Source: Spirochaetales bacterium (GTDB lineage: Bacteria; Spirochaetota; Spirochaetia; Treponematales; Treponemataceae). From it: a DNA stretch of 64,000 bases. The position numbers were made by a program, and so were the translations under genes. Location: contig QKEL01000011.1 of NCBI GenBank assembly GCA_003252395.1, forward strand, positions 372,001 to 436,000. Direction: 5' to 3'. This document shows, one piece after another, positions 1,527 through 62,031 of the stretch (position 1 is its first letter; each line of letters starts with the position of its first letter). The notes under the pieces were generated by a model. The model ran no database searches. It saw only the letters and a list, made by a program, of their open reading frames with translations, and had not been told where the DNA came from.

Positions 1527-2351
1527 CTAAGGGCTTACCTTTCTGTAGACCGCCGTGCTGACGCTCTTGAGTCCCGTGTCCAGCACGCCCAGGTTCTCCG
1601 AATGACCCATAAAAAGATACGCGGATTCGTCCATATGCGCGCAAAGCCGCTCGATCACGGCCTTCTGGGTCGGACGGTCGAAATAGATGAACACGTTCCG
1701 GCAAAAGACGATCTGGTAGTTCCGTTTCAGGGGATACTGGTCGTCCATTAAATTGAGCTTTCTGAACTTTATCCGGTCGCGCAGGGCCGGCTTGAACCGA
1801 ATGGTTTTATCCGCCGGGTCCCGGCTCCGCATGCAATACCGCCGCACGAACTCGTGGGGAATTTTGGAGGCCTGGTGCTCGGTATAGATCCCGGTGCGGC
1901 CGATGGCGAGGACCTTCTCGGAAATGTCCGTCGCGAGGATTGAATAGTCCACGGACAGGCGATGGGCCGCCAGGAATTCCTCGATGGTCATGGCCAGGGT
2001 AAAGGCTTCCTGGCCGGTCGAGGCGGCCACGGACCACACGTTCAGCTCCTTCGCCCCGCGCCGGATCAGCAGTTCCGGCAAGACCGTCTCCCTGAGATAA
2101 TCGAAATGACGGATCTCGCGGAAGAAATCGGTCTCGTTCGTCGTGACCACGTCTACGAGCTGCTGGATCTCCCGCTCGAACCCCTCGGGGCTGAACACGT
2201 AATCGGCATAGGCCTCGTACGAATCGAGCTTCAAAACGCGCAGCCGCTTTGCGAGCCGCGATTCGAGCAGTATTTTCTTCGCCGGCGGCATCCTAATGCC
2301 GAGATTCGGCTCGATAAAGCCTTGAAACCGCGCGAAAACCTCGTCGGTCAT
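1527..2351 (-). CDS. cheR: Chemotaxis protein methyltransferase CheR
   Basis: A 274-residue SAM-dependent methyltransferase that adds methyl groups to MCP glutamates. It has the alpha-helical N-domain, the SAM-binding motif ending in STGQEAFTLAM and the late motif CRNVFIYFD typical of CheR. The beta-subdomain used by some CheRs to bind an MCP C-terminal pentapeptide appears present (around RSRDPADKTIRF). Its start overlaps the cheA stop by four bases (ATGA). It pairs with CheB next door to give methylation-based adaptation. The MCP at 5893-7833 ends in a candidate docking pentapeptide. Confidence 0.96.
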   Translation of the reverse strand: MTDEVFARFQGFIEPNLGIRMPPAKKILLESRLAKRLRVLKLDSYEAYADYVFSPEGFEREIQQLVDVVTTNETDFFREIRHFDYLRETVLPELLIRRGAKELNVWSVAASTGQEAFTLAMTIEEFLAAHRLSVDYSILATDISEKVLAIGRTGIYTEHQASKIPHEFVRRYCMRSRDPADKTIRFKPALRDRIKFRKLNLMDDQYPLKRNYQIVFCRNVFIYFDRPTQKAVIERLCAHMDESAYLFMGHSENLGVLDTGLKSVSTAVYRKVSP

Positions 2352-4432
2352 ACCTCGAGTTTCTCCGCCGCGTTCATGATTTGCTCAACGTCCAGTATCA
2401 AAGCGACGGAGCCGTCGCCGAGAATCGTGGCGCTCGACACGCCTTCGGCCCGCCGGAAGAGCTTGCCCAGGGGCTTAATAACCGTTTGGTTCCCGCCCAC
2501 TACCTGGTCGACCAATACGCCGACCTGGATGTTCTTTATCGCCACTACCACCATCTGCTCTATCGCCGGCCGCGGCGAGGCGAGGCCGAAATAATCGTGC
2601 ATATTGATGAAGGGCAGCTGCCGGTCGTGGAAGATCACGATGCCCTTCTCGGGCTTGCCGGGCTCCCGCGCGTACTCCAGGCAGCCGACGACCACCGAGA
2701 GGGGAATGACGAAATAATCCTCGCCGATGCGGACCAAAAGACCGTCGATGATCGCGAGGGTTAGCGGGATCTTCAGGATAATGCGGGTATATTCCTTCGT
2801 CTTGCTCTCTATGCTCACGGTGCCGCCGATAAGCTCCATCTGCCGATTGACCACGTCCATGCCGACCCCGCGGCCCGATACCGACGACACGGTTTCCTTA
2901 GTGGAGAACCCGGGGGCGAAAATGAGGGCGAAGGTCTCTTCCTCCGTCAGCACGTCCTCGCTCTTGATCAAACCCTTCGAGAGGGCCTTCCGCCGAATCG
3001 CGTCCACGTCGAGCCCGTTCCCGTCGTCCTCGATCACGATATGCACCGAAGCGCCGGTTTGCGCGGCCGACAGGGTAATCGTGCCCGCCTCTTCCTTGCC
3101 GCGCTCCTTTCGCACCTCCGGAAGCTCGATTCCGTGGTCCAGGCTGTTGCGGATAATATGGATCAGCGGGTCGCCCAGCTTTTCGATCACCGTCTTGTCG
3201 AGTTCCGTGTCCCCTCCCTCGGTTACGAGGTTCACGTTCTTGCCCAACTCAGCGGACAGGTCGCGCACCAGGCGCTTGAAGCTCGAGAAGGTGGTGCCGA
3301 TGGGAACCATGCGGATGCTCATGGTGTTGCTGCGCAGCTCGTCGGTCAGGCGGCCGAACTGCTCGATAACGGAAAGCACCTCGTCGTTCTCGTTATAGAG
3401 CTTCGTGGTTTGGAGGATCCGCGCGTGAATGGTCACCAGCTCCCCCACCAGGGCCATGAGCTGGTCGAGCTTTTCCGACTTGACCCGGATCGTGCTCATG
3501 TCGGCCGCCATCTGCTTGCCCTTTAGCGCCCGCTGCGCGAGCTTTTGCTCTTCCAGCGCCACCTTGAGGTGCGTTTTCGAAACGAGTTTTTCCTCTATCA
3601 GGATTTCTCCCAATTTTTTCTGCCGGCTCACGGCATTCTCGATCTTGTCGGTTTCTATGAGGCCGCGGGAAACCAGGATTTCCCCGAGCTTTCTCGGCGT
3701 GTACTCCTCGTCGCCGGGCAGGCACTCGATATCGATTTTGGCGAAGTCCTGCACGAAGATGAACGCGTCGCGCAATTCGTTTTCGTCGGCCTTGGTGGTC
3801 ACGAAGACATAGAGCTCGCTTTGGCATTCGGTGGGGTCAAACGAGGAAAGGGGCTTTATTCGCTCCACGTCGGGAATGCAAACGACCTCTCCCAGCCCCG
3901 CCAATTCCTGCACGATGGAGAAGGGGTTCGTGCCCCTCATGAAGATGTCCTTATCGGGGGCGAACCGGATAAACCAGGTCCTGACCGGCCGATTATCCAC
4001 GGCGGGCGCCTTCGCCTTGGCCTGTACCGCGGGCTTTTCTTCTTCGTCGGAAAAGCCCACGGTCTTCCTGAACGATTCCAGGAACCCCAGCATGTCGGCA
4101 GGCAATTCGTTCCCCTCGGGCTCTCCCGAGGTAATCATGTCCCTGATAATGTCCCGTGCCAACAGCGTATGGTTGATCAAGGGGCCCGAAAGCGGTATTT
4201 TCCCGTCCCGCAACGCCGCGAGGATCGACTCGACCTCGTGGCTGAATTCCGATATACGGTCTAGGCCAAACATGGCGGCGGAGCCCTTGATGGTATGCAT
4301 TACCCGGAATACCGCGGAAAGCAGCTCGCGGTCCGTCGGGTTTTGTTCCAGCTCCAGCAGGTTGCTCTCGAGCTTCTCCAGGAGTTCCATCGCCTCCTCG
4401 CGGAAGGTCTCTATAAATTGGTCATTGGCCAT
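2348..4432 (-). CDS. cheA: Chemotaxis histidine kinase CheA with MshEN-like insert
   Basis: A 694-residue CheA, the kinase that phosphorylates CheY and CheB. Domains in order: HPt with phospho-His H46 (VMHTIKGSAAMFG), a Pro/Ala/Lys linker, a P2-like domain (about 150-240), a tandem LGEIL-motif segment (246-296), the P3 dimerisation helices (about 310-370), the ATPase domain with N-box N429 (HIIRNSLDHG) and G-boxes, and a C-terminal CheW-like P5 domain (about 555-694). The 246-296 segment has two copies of KLGEIL(V/I) 25 residues apart and resembles the N-terminal domain of type II secretion/pilus ATPases (GspE_N/MshEN). This is not part of the textbook CheA. GAGGGGGA precedes the ATG. Confidence 0.96.
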   Translation of the reverse strand: MANDQFIETFREEAMELLEKLESNLLELEQNPTDRELLSAVFRVMHTIKGSAAMFGLDRISEFSHEVESILAALRDGKIPLSGPLINHTLLARDIIRDMITSGEPEGNELPADMLGFLESFRKTVGFSDEEEKPAVQAKAKAPAVDNRPVRTWFIRFAPDKDIFMRGTNPFSIVQELAGLGEVVCIPDVERIKPLSSFDPTECQSELYVFVTTKADENELRDAFIFVQDFAKIDIECLPGDEEYTPRKLGEILVSRGLIETDKIENAVSRQKKLGEILIEEKLVSKTHLKVALEEQKLAQRALKGKQMAADMSTIRVKSEKLDQLMALVGELVTIHARILQTTKLYNENDEVLSVIEQFGRLTDELRSNTMSIRMVPIGTTFSSFKRLVRDLSAELGKNVNLVTEGGDTELDKTVIEKLGDPLIHIIRNSLDHGIELPEVRKERGKEEAGTITLSAAQTGASVHIVIEDDGNGLDVDAIRRKALSKGLIKSEDVLTEEETFALIFAPGFSTKETVSSVSGRGVGMDVVNRQMELIGGTVSIESKTKEYTRIILKIPLTLAIIDGLLVRIGEDYFVIPLSVVVGCLEYAREPGKPEKGIVIFHDRQLPFINMHDYFGLASPRPAIEQMVVVAIKNIQVGVLVDQVVGGNQTVIKPLGKLFRRAEGVSSATILGDGSVALILDVEQIMNAAEKLEV
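3545..3697 (-). other. MshEN/GspE_N-like tandem motif inside CheA
   Basis: CheA codons 246-296. Two consecutive half-units each read (R)KLGEIL(V/I), a turn, then a helix ending in (V/A)xxxQ. The second unit lacks the glycine expected three residues after the LGxxL(V/I) core. The spacing between LG pairs is 25 residues, shorter than the roughly 30 usual in GspE-type proteins. The fold similarity is visible. Ligand binding is inference. Confidence 0.6.
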
Positions 4433-5892: not shown

Positions 5893-7833
5893 TCAGAATT
5901 CCTTGAAATCATTGTCAAGATCGTCCTTACCATGGGGAAGGACGTCATCGTCGAGCACTAAATGAATACCCGTCAAGGGCAATCGCTGTTTCTGTTGGAG
6001 GGAGACTGCGGGTTTCGTCGGAGCGGTCGCCGCAGGTTTCGCCGGAGCGGTCGCCGCGGGTTTCGCCGGCGCGGTCGCCGCGGGTTTCGCCGGAGCGGTC
6101 GCCGCGGGTTTCGCCGGAGCGGTCGCCGCGGGTTTCGCCGGCGCGGTCGCCGCGGGTTTCGCGGGCGCGGTCGCCGCGGGTTTCGCGGGCGCGGTCGCCG
6201 CGGGTTTCGCGGGCGCGGTCGCCGCGGGTTTCGCCAGAGCGGTCGCCGCGGGTTTCGCGGGCGCTGCCAGCGCGGGCTTCGCCGGAGCGGTCGCCGCGGG
6301 TTTCGCGGGCGCGGTCGCCGCGGGTTTCGCCAGAGCGGTCGCCGCGGGTTTTCCCTCTACCGGTTTCCGCGTTCCGCCCTTCGCGGCGGAATCCTTGGCC
6401 ACATCGAGCGTCGCGTGCTTATCCGGGGCGGTCTCCCCGAAAAACCCGATCAAGGCCTGCATCCGTTCGGCCTGTTTCGCGAGATTCTCAGACATTTCCG
6501 AAGACAGCTCGGAAGAGGACGCGTTATCCTGAACGACGCGGTCAAGCTGCATTATCGCGCCGTTAATCGATTCGATACCCGCCTTTTGCTCATTGAGCGC
6601 GGCGCTAATTTCCTGAACCAGGTCGGCGGTTCGCTTAATATCGGGTACCAGCGCCGATATGGTTTCGCCGGCCTTCTCGGCGATTTCCACGCTGCTCAGG
6701 GAAAGGGTACTTATCGCGCCCGCCTCTTTTTGGCTTCTTTCGGCGAGTTTACCCACCTCCGAGGCAACGACGGCAAAGCCCTTACCGAATTCGCCGGCCC
6801 GTGCCGCCTCGATAGACGCGTTTAACGAAAGCATATTGGTAGACCGGGCGATTTCTTCGATTATCCCGATCTTTGAGGCGATTTCCCGCATCGCCTGCAG
6901 GGTTTCCATCACGGCGGTACCGCCGTCAGCGGCGGCCTGGGAAGACATTCGGGCGATTCGCTCGGTTTGGATCGCGTTTTCGGCGCTCTGCCTGATATTC
7001 GAGGACATTTGTTCCATGGACGCGGAAACCTGCTCTACCGACGCAGCCTGTTTCGAAGCGCCGGAGGCGAGGTGCGTCGAGGTTTCGTTGAGCTTATTGC
7101 CGCCGGAAGCCACGCCGGAGGCGACTTCGCGCATCTCGGCGATAAAATCGCCCAAACGCTCGAGCATTTGGGATACCGCCTGCGCGAGAATGCCCATTTC
7201 ATCCTTTCGCGCCAAAATCTTCTCCTCGAGCGTGACGGCCAGACGCCCGCCCGCGATGGACTCGGCGTTCCGCGTCAGGCTCACGAGGGGCCCGGTAATG
7301 CTCTTGGTCAGGAGAAACGTGAAGAGGATCGCGGTCACGAAGGCCGCGAAGGTGGCGATGACCGTGGAAACGATCGAGAGGCTCAGTTCCCGCGCTACCC
7401 CGGCGTTCACGGATTCCTTGGCGGAATAAAGGTCGCTTCGCGCCTTAAGGAGCGACTCCGTTACCTGAGGCCCCGCGGCCGTATCGAGGGCGGCGGAAAC
7501 GGGCTCCAGCCCGGTGACGGCCATCGAGAGGAAAGCCCTGGTCGTCTCGTCATGCTCAAGGTCTAACAGGGCTTGGACCGCGCCAAGCGTCGCCCCAATG
7601 CCCTCCTTAGCCCGTTGAAGGTCCGCGGACGAGCCGGTTTGGTAAAAGGACGATACGGAATCGCTCACGCCGCCGATTCTCGTTAATTCCGCGGAAAGCG
7701 CGTCTCCCGTCTTAAGGGCGGTTCTCGCGTTAAGGGTAAACCCAACGCTAATCGCCGCGATCAGCAGCGTAAAAAGCGAGACGAGGGCAAAGCCGCCGCC
7801 GATCTTGTAAACCATTTTTATGTTTTTCAGCAT
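5893..7833 (-). CDS. Methyl-accepting chemotaxis protein with long Ala-Lys-Pro tail
   Basis: A 646-residue transmembrane chemoreceptor. TM1 is at about 13-33, then a small periplasmic region (about 34-150, mostly helical), TM2 at about 151-175, HAMP, then the coiled-coil signalling domain whose hairpin tip contains the conserved [16 protein letters not shown] stretch (about 333-348). After the signalling domain (to about 465) comes an unusual tail. Roughly 15 copies of an 8-residue AKPAATAP unit (about 495-617) lead into an acidic end terminating in DFKEF. That end fits the x-[HFYW]-x-x-[HFYW] pattern of CheR/CheB docking pentapeptides. AAGGGG precedes the ATG. It lies just upstream of the che operon in the same orientation. 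Confidence 0.93.
   Translation of the reverse strand: MLKNIKMVYKIGGGFALVSLFTLLIAAISVGFTLNARTALKTGDALSAELTRIGGVSDSVSSFYQTGSSADLQRAKEGIGATLGAVQALLDLEHDETTRAFLSMAVTGLEPVSAALDTAAGPQVTESLLKARSDLYSAKESVNAGVARELSLSIVSTVIATFAAFVTAILFTFLLTKSITGPLVSLTRNAESIAGGRLAVTLEEKILARKDEMGILAQAVSQMLERLGDFIAEMREVASGVASGGNKLNETSTHLASGASKQAASVEQVSASMEQMSSNIRQSAENAIQTERIARMSSQAAADGGTAVMETLQAMREIASKIGIIEEIARSTNMLSLNASIEAARAGEFGKGFAVVASEVGKLAERSQKEAGAISTLSLSSVEIAEKAGETISALVPDIKRTADLVQEISAALNEQKAGIESINGAIMQLDRVVQDNASSSELSSEMSENLAKQAERMQALIGFFGETAPDKHATLDVAKDSAAKGGTRKPVEGKPAATALAKPAATAPAKPAATAPAKPALAAPAKPAATALAKPAATAPAKPAATAPAKPAATAPAKPAATAPAKPAATAPAKPAATAPAKPAATAPAKPAATAPAKPAATAPTKPAVSLQQKQRLPLTGIHLVLDDDVLPHGKDDLDNDFKEF
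6005..6352 (-). repeat. 24-bp tandem repeat array encoding (AKPAATAP)n
   Basis: About 15 head-to-tail 24-bp units within the MCP gene, nearly identical and with few synonymous changes. Most encode AKPAATAP, and variants read AKPAATAL and AKPALAAP. The unit is a multiple of three, so gain or loss of copies keeps the frame and changes only tail length. The near-identity suggests recent expansion. Confidence 0.92.
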
Positions 7834-41107: not shown

Positions 41108-42751
41108 ATGACCTTCCTGGAAGACCTGATCCGAATCCTTCAGGATTTTCTCGAATCTCTTTTTTCGTCCTCATCGCCGGAGTACAGAAAAAAAACGGAA
41201 CTCAGGCATATCCAAGCCGATTTACGCGCCATCACCCCGCCGATTTGGAGGGCGGACGGCGCGCTCCTTCCCGCTTTCCCCACCGCGATTCTGCAAGTGA
41301 ACGCCTTTCTCGCCTACGTTCGGGAAATTCTGGACGCCACCGTCTCCGCCCAGGACAAGAGGGCGGCAGAACGGTTCCGGGAGCTTCTTTTCGAGGCGGA
41401 ACTCCCCCCGGAACAGGGCGTGGCGCGGGATCACCTCACCCTGGCCTTTCGGACCCAGGAACTGGCCGAATCCAAGGATGTTCCCGAGCGGGTGGTGGAA
41501 GACCAGGGAAAGCGTCTTGCCCAGTACCTCAAACAGCTCGAAGGCCCCCAAGGAAAGCAGGCGGAGAGCAAGGTCCTCGCGGTCCTGGCGCTGGCCGATT
41601 TCAGCCATTTCAACTTCAACGAGTTCTTCAGTTATTTTGACCCCGCCTTTTCCTCGCATATTGGCCAGGGAACCACCGTGGAAAACCCGAGCTTCAAGAC
41701 GGTGGAAGTGGCCGAGATCATTCCCTCGCTCCTGGACCTCTATTACCTCATGACAGACCTGCGAATCGGGGAATCGCTGGCCCTCTCCGTCGCCACCCTT
41801 GACGCCCTGCGCAAAAAAACGGGCCTCAGCGAGGAACTTCGCGCGAAATCCTCCCGGCTCTTCCAGGCGATCGGCTACCTACTCGAAAAGAGGATCCCCG
41901 CCGCGACCCTTCTTTCGATAATCCGCGTGGCGAAGGACGATCCCGCCTACGTTCCCGACCATCCCCAGGAAAAGGCGGATTTCCTCGAGCACTACCGCGC
42001 GCGGCTCACCGAAAGCTTTGACGGGGATTCCCGAAAACTGCTCAAGGACCGGCAAAACAGCGAGACCAGGCAACGCCTTCGCGAAGTATTCGGCGAGGCG
42101 GAACTCTCGGAGCTCGAGGGATACAACGATAGCACCAACGCCCTCGTTCAGGAGTTCACGAGCCTTTCCCTGGACTGGATCGAACCGCTGAGGATACTGC
42201 GTACCTTCACGGACCGTTTTTTCATTCCCCACTTCGCCACAATCGTCAGAAGCGTGGTGGTCGAGGGCTATTTCCATAACCGGACCCTCCAAAGCACCAT
42301 GAGCGCCACCTATTACTATTGCGAGCTTCTCCCGTCGAAATTTTCCGAATTCGAGCGGCTGTTCGCCGAGGGAGAGCCCTGCAGCCTAAAGATCCTTACC
42401 GGCTATATCACCGAACTGGAAAAGGGCATGGATTTCGAGACGCCCCTCAGAAAGATGATCGAGAACATGAACGGCTTCGCCAAAGGGCTTCTGCAGCAAA
42501 CGGTCATGGAATACCTCGAACTGTACAAGTTCTGCCTGATGATCGTTGAGGACAGCAAAAAATCCGTCCCGGAGGTCATAACCAATATTCGAACCCTGGT
42601 AACGTCGGTGAAAAACCACGATTCGTTTCGGGCGCTGGAGCAAGAAATTGGAGTTTTTCGCAATTTTCTTGAAATAATGAAGAAATATGCTATAGTGGGT
42701 TCGTTAACTGTTCCCATGCGCGCCGGCGAGCAAGCGGAGAATTCTAAATAA
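41108..42751 (+). CDS. Uncharacterised helical protein, spirochaete-type
   Basis: A 547-residue protein with no membrane segment apart from a possible amphipathic N-terminal helix (FLEDLIRILQDFLESLFSSSS). It is predicted to be almost wholly alpha-helical, with many Leu-rich amphipathic stretches and no catalytic motif I recognise. It vaguely recalls a domain of unknown function found in treponemes, which I cannot confirm from memory. It is the first gene of a coupled run: its stop overlaps the next start (TAATG) of a diguanylate cyclase, so the two are probably made in fixed ratio. Starts from a leaderless promoter. Confidence 0.75.
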   Translation: MTFLEDLIRILQDFLESLFSSSSPEYRKKTELRHIQADLRAITPPIWRADGALLPAFPTAILQVNAFLAYVREILDATVSAQDKRAAERFRELLFEAELPPEQGVARDHLTLAFRTQELAESKDVPERVVEDQGKRLAQYLKQLEGPQGKQAESKVLAVLALADFSHFNFNEFFSYFDPAFSSHIGQGTTVENPSFKTVEVAEIIPSLLDLYYLMTDLRIGESLALSVATLDALRKKTGLSEELRAKSSRLFQAIGYLLEKRIPAATLLSIIRVAKDDPAYVPDHPQEKADFLEHYRARLTESFDGDSRKLLKDRQNSETRQRLREVFGEAELSELEGYNDSTNALVQEFTSLSLDWIEPLRILRTFTDRFFIPHFATIVRSVVVEGYFHNRTLQSTMSATYYYCELLPSKFSEFERLFAEGEPCSLKILTGYITELEKGMDFETPLRKMIENMNGFAKGLLQQTVMEYLELYKFCLMIVEDSKKSVPEVITNIRTLVTSVKNHDSFRALEQEIGVFRNFLEIMKKYAIVGSLTVPMRAGEQAENSK

Positions 42752-43794
42752 TGACCAGAACAAAAAGAGCCATTTCCAATGAAGCCTCAAAAGAAAAGCA
42801 AATCTATGATCTTAAACAGCTTCTGGAAATTTCCAAGAGCCTTACCTCGGTTATCGATTTCTCCACCCTTATAGAAGCCATCCTGTATACCTGCATGGGG
42901 CAAATGAAAACCCTGGGCGTGGCCATTTTCACCAAAAAGAATTTCGACGCCACCTATTTCCAGCTTAACCGTAACTACTGCGGCTTCGAGCTCGAGGAAA
43001 ACTGCGACTATTCCTTCCCCGAGGAGCACCCGCTTATCGCGCTCCTTTCACGGCCCAGCGCCTGTTACACGGTCGAGGACATCGGCGCCCTCATCCCCGC
43101 GGACGCGCCCCTGAAAGCGCTTTTCGCGCTGGAACCGTCCCTCATCGTCCCCCTGAAAACGAAAAACCACATCAATGGATTGCTGGTGCTGGGCGAGCAG
43201 ATATCTTCCGAGCCGTACTCGAACTACGAAAAAGAGCACATTTTGAACATAGCGTCGCTGGCGTCCATCGCCATAAGCAACGCCGCCCTCCTCGAGATGA
43301 GCACGACGGACATGATGACCCACCTGAAACTCAAGCACTATTTTTACACCGTGCTGATCGAACGGATGGAATTCAGCGCCGAACAAGACCTGCGCCTCTC
43401 CGTGGTCATGATCGATATTGATTTTTTCAAAAGGTTTAACGATACATACGGCCATTCCTGCGGCGATACGGTGCTTCAAATGGTAGCCAGCGTGATTCAG
43501 CAGAATACCCGGAGCCAGGATATGGCCGCCCGGTACGGCGGCGAGGAATTCGTGGTTATGCTCTGCGAGACGCAAGCCAGCGCCGCGATGAAGATAGCCG
43601 ACCGCATTAGGTCATCCATCGAAAACCTGGACATTCTCTACGACGGCCAGCACCTGAGCCTGACCGTTTCGGCCGGCGTCGCGGAGTACGATCCCCTGCG
43701 GGACAAAACGGCAAAGGCCCTGGTGGACCGCGCCGACAAGGCCCTCTACGAAGCCAAGGAATCGGGACGAAACGCGGTTAGGCAGTCGAAATGA
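42751..43794 (+). CDS. GAF-GGDEF diguanylate cyclase
   Basis: A 347-residue cytoplasmic enzyme. A GAF-like sensor occupies about 20-170 (SLTSVIDFSTLIEAILYTCM... SYEKEHILNIASLASIAISNA). The GGDEF domain follows, starting TTDMMTHLKLKHYFYTVL, with the active signature R-Y-GGEEF (263-267) and the RxxD inhibitory site RSQD (254-257), five residues before GGEEF. It should make cyclic-di-GMP and be feedback inhibited. It is coupled by a one-base overlap to the unknown protein upstream and by four bases to the GH13 gene downstream. Confidence 0.92.
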   Translation: MTRTKRAISNEASKEKQIYDLKQLLEISKSLTSVIDFSTLIEAILYTCMGQMKTLGVAIFTKKNFDATYFQLNRNYCGFELEENCDYSFPEEHPLIALLSRPSACYTVEDIGALIPADAPLKALFALEPSLIVPLKTKNHINGLLVLGEQISSEPYSNYEKEHILNIASLASIAISNAALLEMSTTDMMTHLKLKHYFYTVLIERMEFSAEQDLRLSVVMIDIDFFKRFNDTYGHSCGDTVLQMVASVIQQNTRSQDMAARYGGEEFVVMLCETQASAAMKIADRIRSSIENLDILYDGQHLSLTVSAGVAEYDPLRDKTAKALVDRADKALYEAKESGRNAVRQSK

Positions 43795-60822: not shown

Positions 60823-62031
60823 ATGTCGCATGCCTTGGTCTTCAGCCTGGAGCTCAATCTCTTCACCCTGATGCTGGTCGGCACCCTGCTCGCCGCCAGC
60901 TCGCGCCGGCAGGCCCTGGTGTATCTCAGCGCCCGACTCTACTTTTCCCTCCTGGCGCTTATCGGAACCCTGATCGCCCTTGAATCGGTTCGCTCCCTCA
61001 TCGTGATCGCCCGCCTTCCCGGGGGCGACGCCGTCGGGAACGCGGTAAACGCCGCGTATTTCGCCCTGGAAGGCGCCTTATACCTGCGCTATTTTACCTT
61101 TATCGATTTCCACGTATTCGGGGATACCCTCCGGACCAGGCGCCTCGCGCGCCGCGTTACCGCGGTCTGGCTCGCCTATTCGATACCCGTCGTCCTTTCG
61201 GCCTTCACCGGTTGGGTATTCTCCGTTGGCCCCGACGGCCACGTTATCCGCGGACCGCTGTTCGCCTATATCCCGGTATTTTCCTACGCGGTGCTGGGGG
61301 CAGGCCTCCTCAGGGCCTTTCAGTCGCGATCGCGGGTCGAGCGGAGAAACTTTTGGCCCCTGTTCGTCTTCCCCCTCCCGACAATCGTCGGCGGCACGGT
61401 CCAATTGCTGAACGCCGACCTTCCTTTCCTGTGGGCGGGGGCCTCCCTGTCCATGCTGATCGTTTTTCTCCATATCCAGAACGAACGGCTCAACCGGGAC
61501 TACCTGACCGGGGCCTGGAACCGGCGCTTTTTAGACGAATACCTCGAGTGCCGAACCCTTTCCGGCGATCGGGACCCCGCGCTTTCGGGCATATTCATCG
61601 ACCTCGACGGCTTTAAGCGGATTAACGACGACTTCGGCCACGAAACCGGCGACCAGGCCCTCCAAATGACGGCGAGCATCCTGAAAACCTGCGTTCGCGG
61701 CGACGACTTCCTCGCGCGCTACGCGGGAGACGAATTCGTCATCGTACTCGAAACCGCGAACCCCGGAACCCTTACGCTGGTCATATCGCGCATCGAAGAC
61801 GAGATTGAACGGTTTAACCGGGGTAAAACCCGCCCGTATACGCTCTCGCTGAGCATCGGGAGCGCCATTTATAGCCGAGAGAGGGACGGAACGGGACATG
61901 ATTTCCTCAAGCTGCTGGACGCGCGCATGTACGAAATAAAGCAAGAACGGAAGCGGCTCAGCGCCGAGGCCGCGGCGGCAAACGAGGCGGCGGGAGAATC
62001 CGATCCGGGCGGGCAGACGCCCCGGGGCTAA
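60823..62031 (+). CDS. Membrane-anchored diguanylate cyclase
   Basis: A 402-residue protein. The N-terminal 215 residues hold about six to seven TM segments with short loops, a likely membrane sensor. The C-terminal GGDEF domain (about 220-380) begins DYLTGAWNRRFLD and has the active variant AGDEF (301-305), with RxxD (RGDD, 292-295) exactly five residues before it. It should make cyclic-di-GMP with product inhibition. The tail is an Ala/Glu-rich low-complexity stretch. It overlaps the convergent GH65 gene by four bases. Confidence 0.9.
   Translation: MSHALVFSLELNLFTLMLVGTLLAASSRRQALVYLSARLYFSLLALIGTLIALESVRSLIVIARLPGGDAVGNAVNAAYFALEGALYLRYFTFIDFHVFGDTLRTRRLARRVTAVWLAYSIPVVLSAFTGWVFSVGPDGHVIRGPLFAYIPVFSYAVLGAGLLRAFQSRSRVERRNFWPLFVFPLPTIVGGTVQLLNADLPFLWAGASLSMLIVFLHIQNERLNRDYLTGAWNRRFLDEYLECRTLSGDRDPALSGIFIDLDGFKRINDDFGHETGDQALQMTASILKTCVRGDDFLARYAGDEFVIVLETANPGTLTLVISRIEDEIERFNRGKTRPYTLSLSIGSAIYSRERDGTGHDFLKLLDARMYEIKQERKRLSAEAAAANEAAGESDPGGQTPRG

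Follow-up and report, generated by a model that had tools for sequence, protein, structure and literature searches.

A compact form of the MshE-type tandem c-di-GMP motif between the P2 and P3 domains of a spirochaete CheA

The 64,000-nucleotide stretch of a Spirochaetales genome analyzed here, hereafter the window, encodes a CheA histidine kinase that carries two 24-residue units in tandem. We are nearly certain that these units, which form an insertion at residues 248-296 between P2 and P3, represent the MshE-type tandem c-di-GMP motif in a compact (24-1-24) form. The new feature is the linker: it consists of a single residue in most of the CheAs sampled, and this shortness is confined almost entirely to one CheA clade. 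We found no paper that describes the short linker, the clade that has it, or how it is distributed. We call "compact" the CheAs with a one-residue linker between the two 24-residue motifs, the "canonical" linker being of 5-7 residues in most CheAs of this kind.

The cheA gene (2348..4432, minus strand, as are all the domains described below) encodes a protein of 694 aa with, according to its translation and Pfam matches, the order Hpt, P2-like domain, MshE tandem module, P3, P4, and P5. Hpt, the P1 domain, occupies residues 5-95, and HATPase_c and CheW domains are also present. P1, P3, P4, and P5 each score above the Pfam cut-off, and the P2-like response-regulator-binding domain (residues 160-235; 3728..3955) matches PF07194 at 19.0 bits, under the 23-bit cut-off. 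The initial annotation had placed two motif copies 25 residues apart between the P2-like domain and P3, and we find them there, at nucleotides 3545-3691. Motif I (KLGEILVSRGLIETDKIENAVSRQ, residues 248-271; 3620..3691) and motif II (KLGEILIEEKLVSKTHLKVALEEQ, residues 273-296; 3545..3616), delimited by an NCBIfam match and each predicted to form two helices, are separated according to position mapping by Lys272 alone (3617..3619). The fourth helix is predicted to continue towards P3 through residues 297-311 (3500..3544; helix 51-76 in a model of segment 236-312). P3 (residues 313-373; 3314..3496), the dimerization domain, starts 16 residues past motif II. It is a full match of normal length to the H-kinase_dim profile (PF02895, 49.6 bits), and the extended P3 of F2 CheAs is absent. 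The tandem is not a product of chance, since a relaxed unit pattern that occurs twice in the real CheA never turned up as a pair in 10,000 shuffled versions, where single units averaged 0.007 per sequence.

The proposed likeness to the c-di-GMP motif of MshE and GspE_N domains was borne out by profile searches. Residues 248-296 align with NCBIfam model NF053729 (c-di-GMP_motif, MshE-related) from end to end of its 53 positions, at 48.5 bits (cut-off 38); the linker columns are deleted and the halves aligned as two stretches. The same model matches all 74 members of the CheA segment alignment, and NfrB, the c-di-GMP-activated glycosyltransferase of Escherichia coli, is among the weak further matches of this search. 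A profile of the 74 segments retrieved from the PDB PilF (6f8l, E 6e-25), PilB (4e-9), and MshE (5htl, 4e-9), which are the only low-E matches. Of the two HMM routes, only that through NCBIfam succeeded: the Pfam MshEN model PF05157 did not match the CheA, and domain membership rests on the motif model NF053729.

The module resembles a well-characterized domain. According to Wang et al. (2016; PMC5013675), MshE binds c-di-GMP via two halves of 24 residues with a five-residue linker, and the motif pair by itself is enough for binding (KD 0.35 uM). The N-terminal MshEN/GSPII domains of Vibrio cholerae MshE (5htl) and Thermus thermophilus PilF-GSPIIB (8pdk) consist of two 24-residue motifs with the consensus (R/K/L)LG...G...L...L..Q, as does the CheA module, which shares with them the contact residues, the cross-motif charge pairs, and, by prediction, the four helices. 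In contrast, the CheA module has a linker of one residue instead of five, a lysine at the position of Gly10 in motif II, and no MshEN_C subdomain; it is set in a kinase, with P2 on one side and P3 on the other, and the monomer model does not reproduce the closed bundle. Wang et al. name CheA and CheX among MshEN-associated proteins, and the domain combination in those CheAs is that of the window CheA; for CheA, their main text describes neither a linker variant nor the position, distribution, or fold of the module (PMC5013675). No MshEN module is mentioned in a 2023 survey of domain architectures in CheA (PMC10782961).

The short linker noticed at first sight is confirmed as one residue, against five in MshE. 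Among 213 CheAs analyzed, the linker has one residue in 153, five in 26, two in 11, and seven in 11, and the single residue is K or R in 80 of 97 compact CheAs. A phylogeny of the P3-P5 core groups 91 of 92 sequences with a one-residue linker under one branch (SH-aLRT 99) and leaves the canonical linkers outside. As one clade holds nearly all of them, the one-residue linker is an inherited trait and not an error of the source genome.

Other spirochaete CheAs share the module, as the initial annotation had asked. A CheA core is found in 270 of 296 Spirochaetota genomes, and the segment together with a P3 match in 101 of 296, a slight overcount of CheAs, as a few of the weaker matches are small non-CheA frames. 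The best 80 of 300 confirmed relatives in named genomes come from Spirochaetota, Thermodesulfobacteriota (Geobacteraceae, Desulfobulbaceae, and others), Nitrospirota, Deferribacterota, Magnetococcales, Planctomycetota, and Methylomirabilota. Matches occur in 111 of 148 genomes of the phylum group of a Geotalea genome and in 104 of 148 of that of a Nitrospirota genome, non-CheA MshEN proteins being counted in both. The module is widespread and its link to CheA was already noted in 2016 (PMC5013675), so that the description of it as unusual does not hold.

Unit number varies among these proteins. Two CheA ORFs from gut "deltaproteobacteria" (L066 and L106) carry two consecutive motif pairs, that is, four units. 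Two others (L103 and L111, the latter from Nitrospirota) carry three MshE-like units with a period of 25 residues, the first with Arg in place of Gly at position 3. At L115, L117, L120, L123, and other Spirochaetota loci, many small frames of ~60-100 aa contain little beyond one canonical MshEN motif pair and are possible stand-alone c-di-GMP receptors.

The source genome encodes four clear CheAs, and a fifth locus gives a weak core match. Three CheAs have the module, with linkers of one, two, and seven residues, the last two in paralogues L143 and L144 (G000:C9:41955-42221 and G000:C2:586145-586417), where MshE motif pairs are present. The F2-type paralogue L260, of 816 aa and with a longer P3, has no MshE motif. 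Because the genome holds several CheAs, this F2-type protein without the module among them, we place the window CheA in an accessory system, which has its own CheY-like regulator, CheB, CheR, two CheW, and an MCP. The F2 CheA of Treponema denticola, with its extended P3, is likewise a spirochaete-linked variation of CheA near P3, but its feature consists of extra residues inside P3 and is distinct from the MshE module (PMC7666581). Elsewhere in the source genome, a 303-aa frame (L147, G000:C1:131222-131542) contains two weak MshE-like units. The MCP gene of the window (5893-7833, minus strand) contains at 6008-6351 about 14 copies of a 24-bp repeat, coding for an 8-residue unit in an Ala/Pro/Lys-rich tail, and a short ORF lies between cheA and cheW.

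Six positions per motif (1, 2, 3, 17, 21, and 24) contact the ligand, 12 in total. The window CheA has K1 L2 G3 I17 V21 Q24 in motif I and K1 L2 G3 L17 L21 Q24 in motif II, so that 12 of 12 are within the extended consensus, with I and V replacing L at motif I positions 17 and 21. Lysine at position 1 goes with higher c-di-GMP affinity in PilF-GSPIIB (PMC11731258). Of 144 compact CheAs (weighted), 94% have K, R, or L at position 1 of motif I, 99-100% have Gly3, and 97% have Gln24 in motif II. The two contacts flanking the shortened linker are relaxed, with motif I keeping its Gln24 in 69% and motif II its position 1 in 73%. This relaxation counts against c-di-GMP reading, as does the retention of all 12 contacts in just 56 of the 144. 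The turn glycine at position 10 is present in motif I (Gly257) and, as first noted, replaced in motif II (Lys282). It had been taken to weaken ligand binding; the weakness is minor, since this is a helix-turn residue that makes no contact and is G in motif II of only 94 of the 144 compact CheAs.

We scored charge complementarity between motif I and motif II positions over 300 symmetrized pairs; the sets compared share ancestry and the numbers are no probabilities. Pairs 9-23 and 9-19 rank as the top two in 141 compact CheAs, and also in 48 CheAs with linkers of at least three residues and in 88 non-CheA MshEN domains. In the compact CheAs, I9-II23 has opposite charges 124 times and the same charge never, five charge reversals included; in the window CheA, both I9-II23 and I23-II9 are R-E. 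The signal is stronger outside Spirochaetota: in 43 compact CheAs from this phylum only, 9-23 ranks fourth and 9-19 twelfth. For pocket pairs, mean-field DCA with 97 and 144 sequences lacked statistical power. The simplest reading of these patterns is that the motif-to-motif packing of MshEN seems to be kept in compact CheAs, perhaps across the subunits of the dimer.

The AlphaFold2 model of residues 236-312 consists of four helices in MshEN order, with a core pLDDT of ~94 and the last helix extending towards P3. Despite this, the anticipated MshEN fold was not recovered: a Foldseek search of solved structures with the compact monomer gave no match, a result that counts against c-di-GMP reading. 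VIA-align found no match either, with four chains to compare, and says nothing on whether the folds differ. As a control, we modeled the L066 CheA segment, which has a 6-residue linker, with nearly the same alignment. At a confidence of 72, below that of the compact model, it superposed 55 residues on c-di-GMP-bound PilF-GSPIIB at 1.0 A, fitted 5htl at 1.2-1.5 A (VIA Z 9.4), and matched PilB-N too. The pipeline is therefore able to see an MshEN fold, and did not see one in the compact monomer. The suspicion that the short linker weakens binding is in this respect a serious one, as a normal-linker relative matched c-di-GMP-bound domains and the compact fold did not. Two other readings of the model were rejected. 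A fusion of helices 2 and 3 is contradicted by a break at segment residues 36-38, and a solenoid-like repeat, suggested by the Foldseek miss and the three 25-residue units of L103 and L111, is opposed by the MshEN-like cross-motif charge pairs.

These sequence features suggest that CheA may be directly tuned by c-di-GMP. Motifs I and II would pack on each other as in MshEN, and c-di-GMP from the many GGDEF proteins of the cell would bind at the motif pair. Binding would alter the fourth helix leading towards P3, the placement of P1 and P2 relative to the kinase core would shift, and CheA output would be tuned in the accessory chemosensory system. Two diguanylate cyclase candidates are encoded in the window on the plus strand, one (42751..43794; Pfam GGDEF, 152.5 bits) with a GGEEF motif and an RSQD I-site, a possible source of the ligand, the other (60823..62031; 121 bits) with AGDEF and RGDD. 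Both were initially described as active enzymes with RxxD sites; the GGDEF proteins are there, with RxxD five residues ahead of GGEEF or AGDEF, and their activity is predicted from sequence. All 101 Spirochaetota genomes with the segment encode GGDEF proteins, but so do 286 of the 296 overall, which makes this co-occurrence weak and nearly uninformative evidence. Taken as a whole, ligand binding included, the statement that the compact module still reads c-di-GMP and regulates CheA has in our estimate about an even chance of being right.

Its main rival, a credible one to which we give somewhat less than an even chance, is that a former MshEN module lost ligand binding in the clade with the one-residue linker and has become a helical spacer or docking surface, positioning P1/P2 or binding a partner. 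The confinement of this linker to essentially one clade, the relaxed contacts adjoining the junction, and the compact model without a match to the MshEN fold all fit such a loss, as does a strongly conserved surface that compact CheAs have of their own (E8 and R9 of motif I). Degenerate non-binders are also known, XpsE and PilF-GSPIIA. Loss is harder to reconcile with contacts that stay nearly invariant across many phyla (positions 1-3 in motif I, Gln24 in motif II), with the full set of contacts in the window CheA, and with a cross-motif charge pairing that equals that of true MshEN domains.

That an altered pocket binds some other nucleotide or small molecule, such as cGAMP, is improbable: MshEN binds cGAMP weakly (KD 0.33 mM, PMC5013675) and many compact CheAs differ at the two pocket positions by the short linker, but the window CheA retains every c-di-GMP contact position. 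That the repeat is unrelated to MshEN, a generic helical hairpin of superficial likeness, is most improbable and already largely refuted, for against the missing Pfam MshEN match and the weak FumaraseC_C and DUF4388 matches found instead stand the NF053729 score above cut-off, low-E PDB matches confined to PilF, PilB, and MshE, CheA relatives with canonical linkers, and covariation common to CheAs and MshEN domains.

If the two motifs of compact CheAs do pack on each other, the bundle would close in one of two ways: the helix ends could unwind so that a single chain suffices, or the other CheA subunit could supply the partner motif. Domain swapping is known to result from short hinges. A speculative and rather unlikely extension is that the one-residue linker is too short for a one-chain bundle in this clade, so that motifs I and II would pair across subunits and place the c-di-GMP sites at the CheA dimer interface, forming a domain-swapped second-messenger switch on the kinase itself in many phyla.

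In known systems, c-di-GMP reaches chemotaxis via separate proteins, such as PilZ-domain receptors. CheAs with normal linkers and those with one-residue linkers offer a ready comparison. If CheA has a built-in receptor, the kinase itself would be an entry point of the swim-or-settle signal, in spirochaetes as well as in Geobacter relatives, Nitrospirota, and others.
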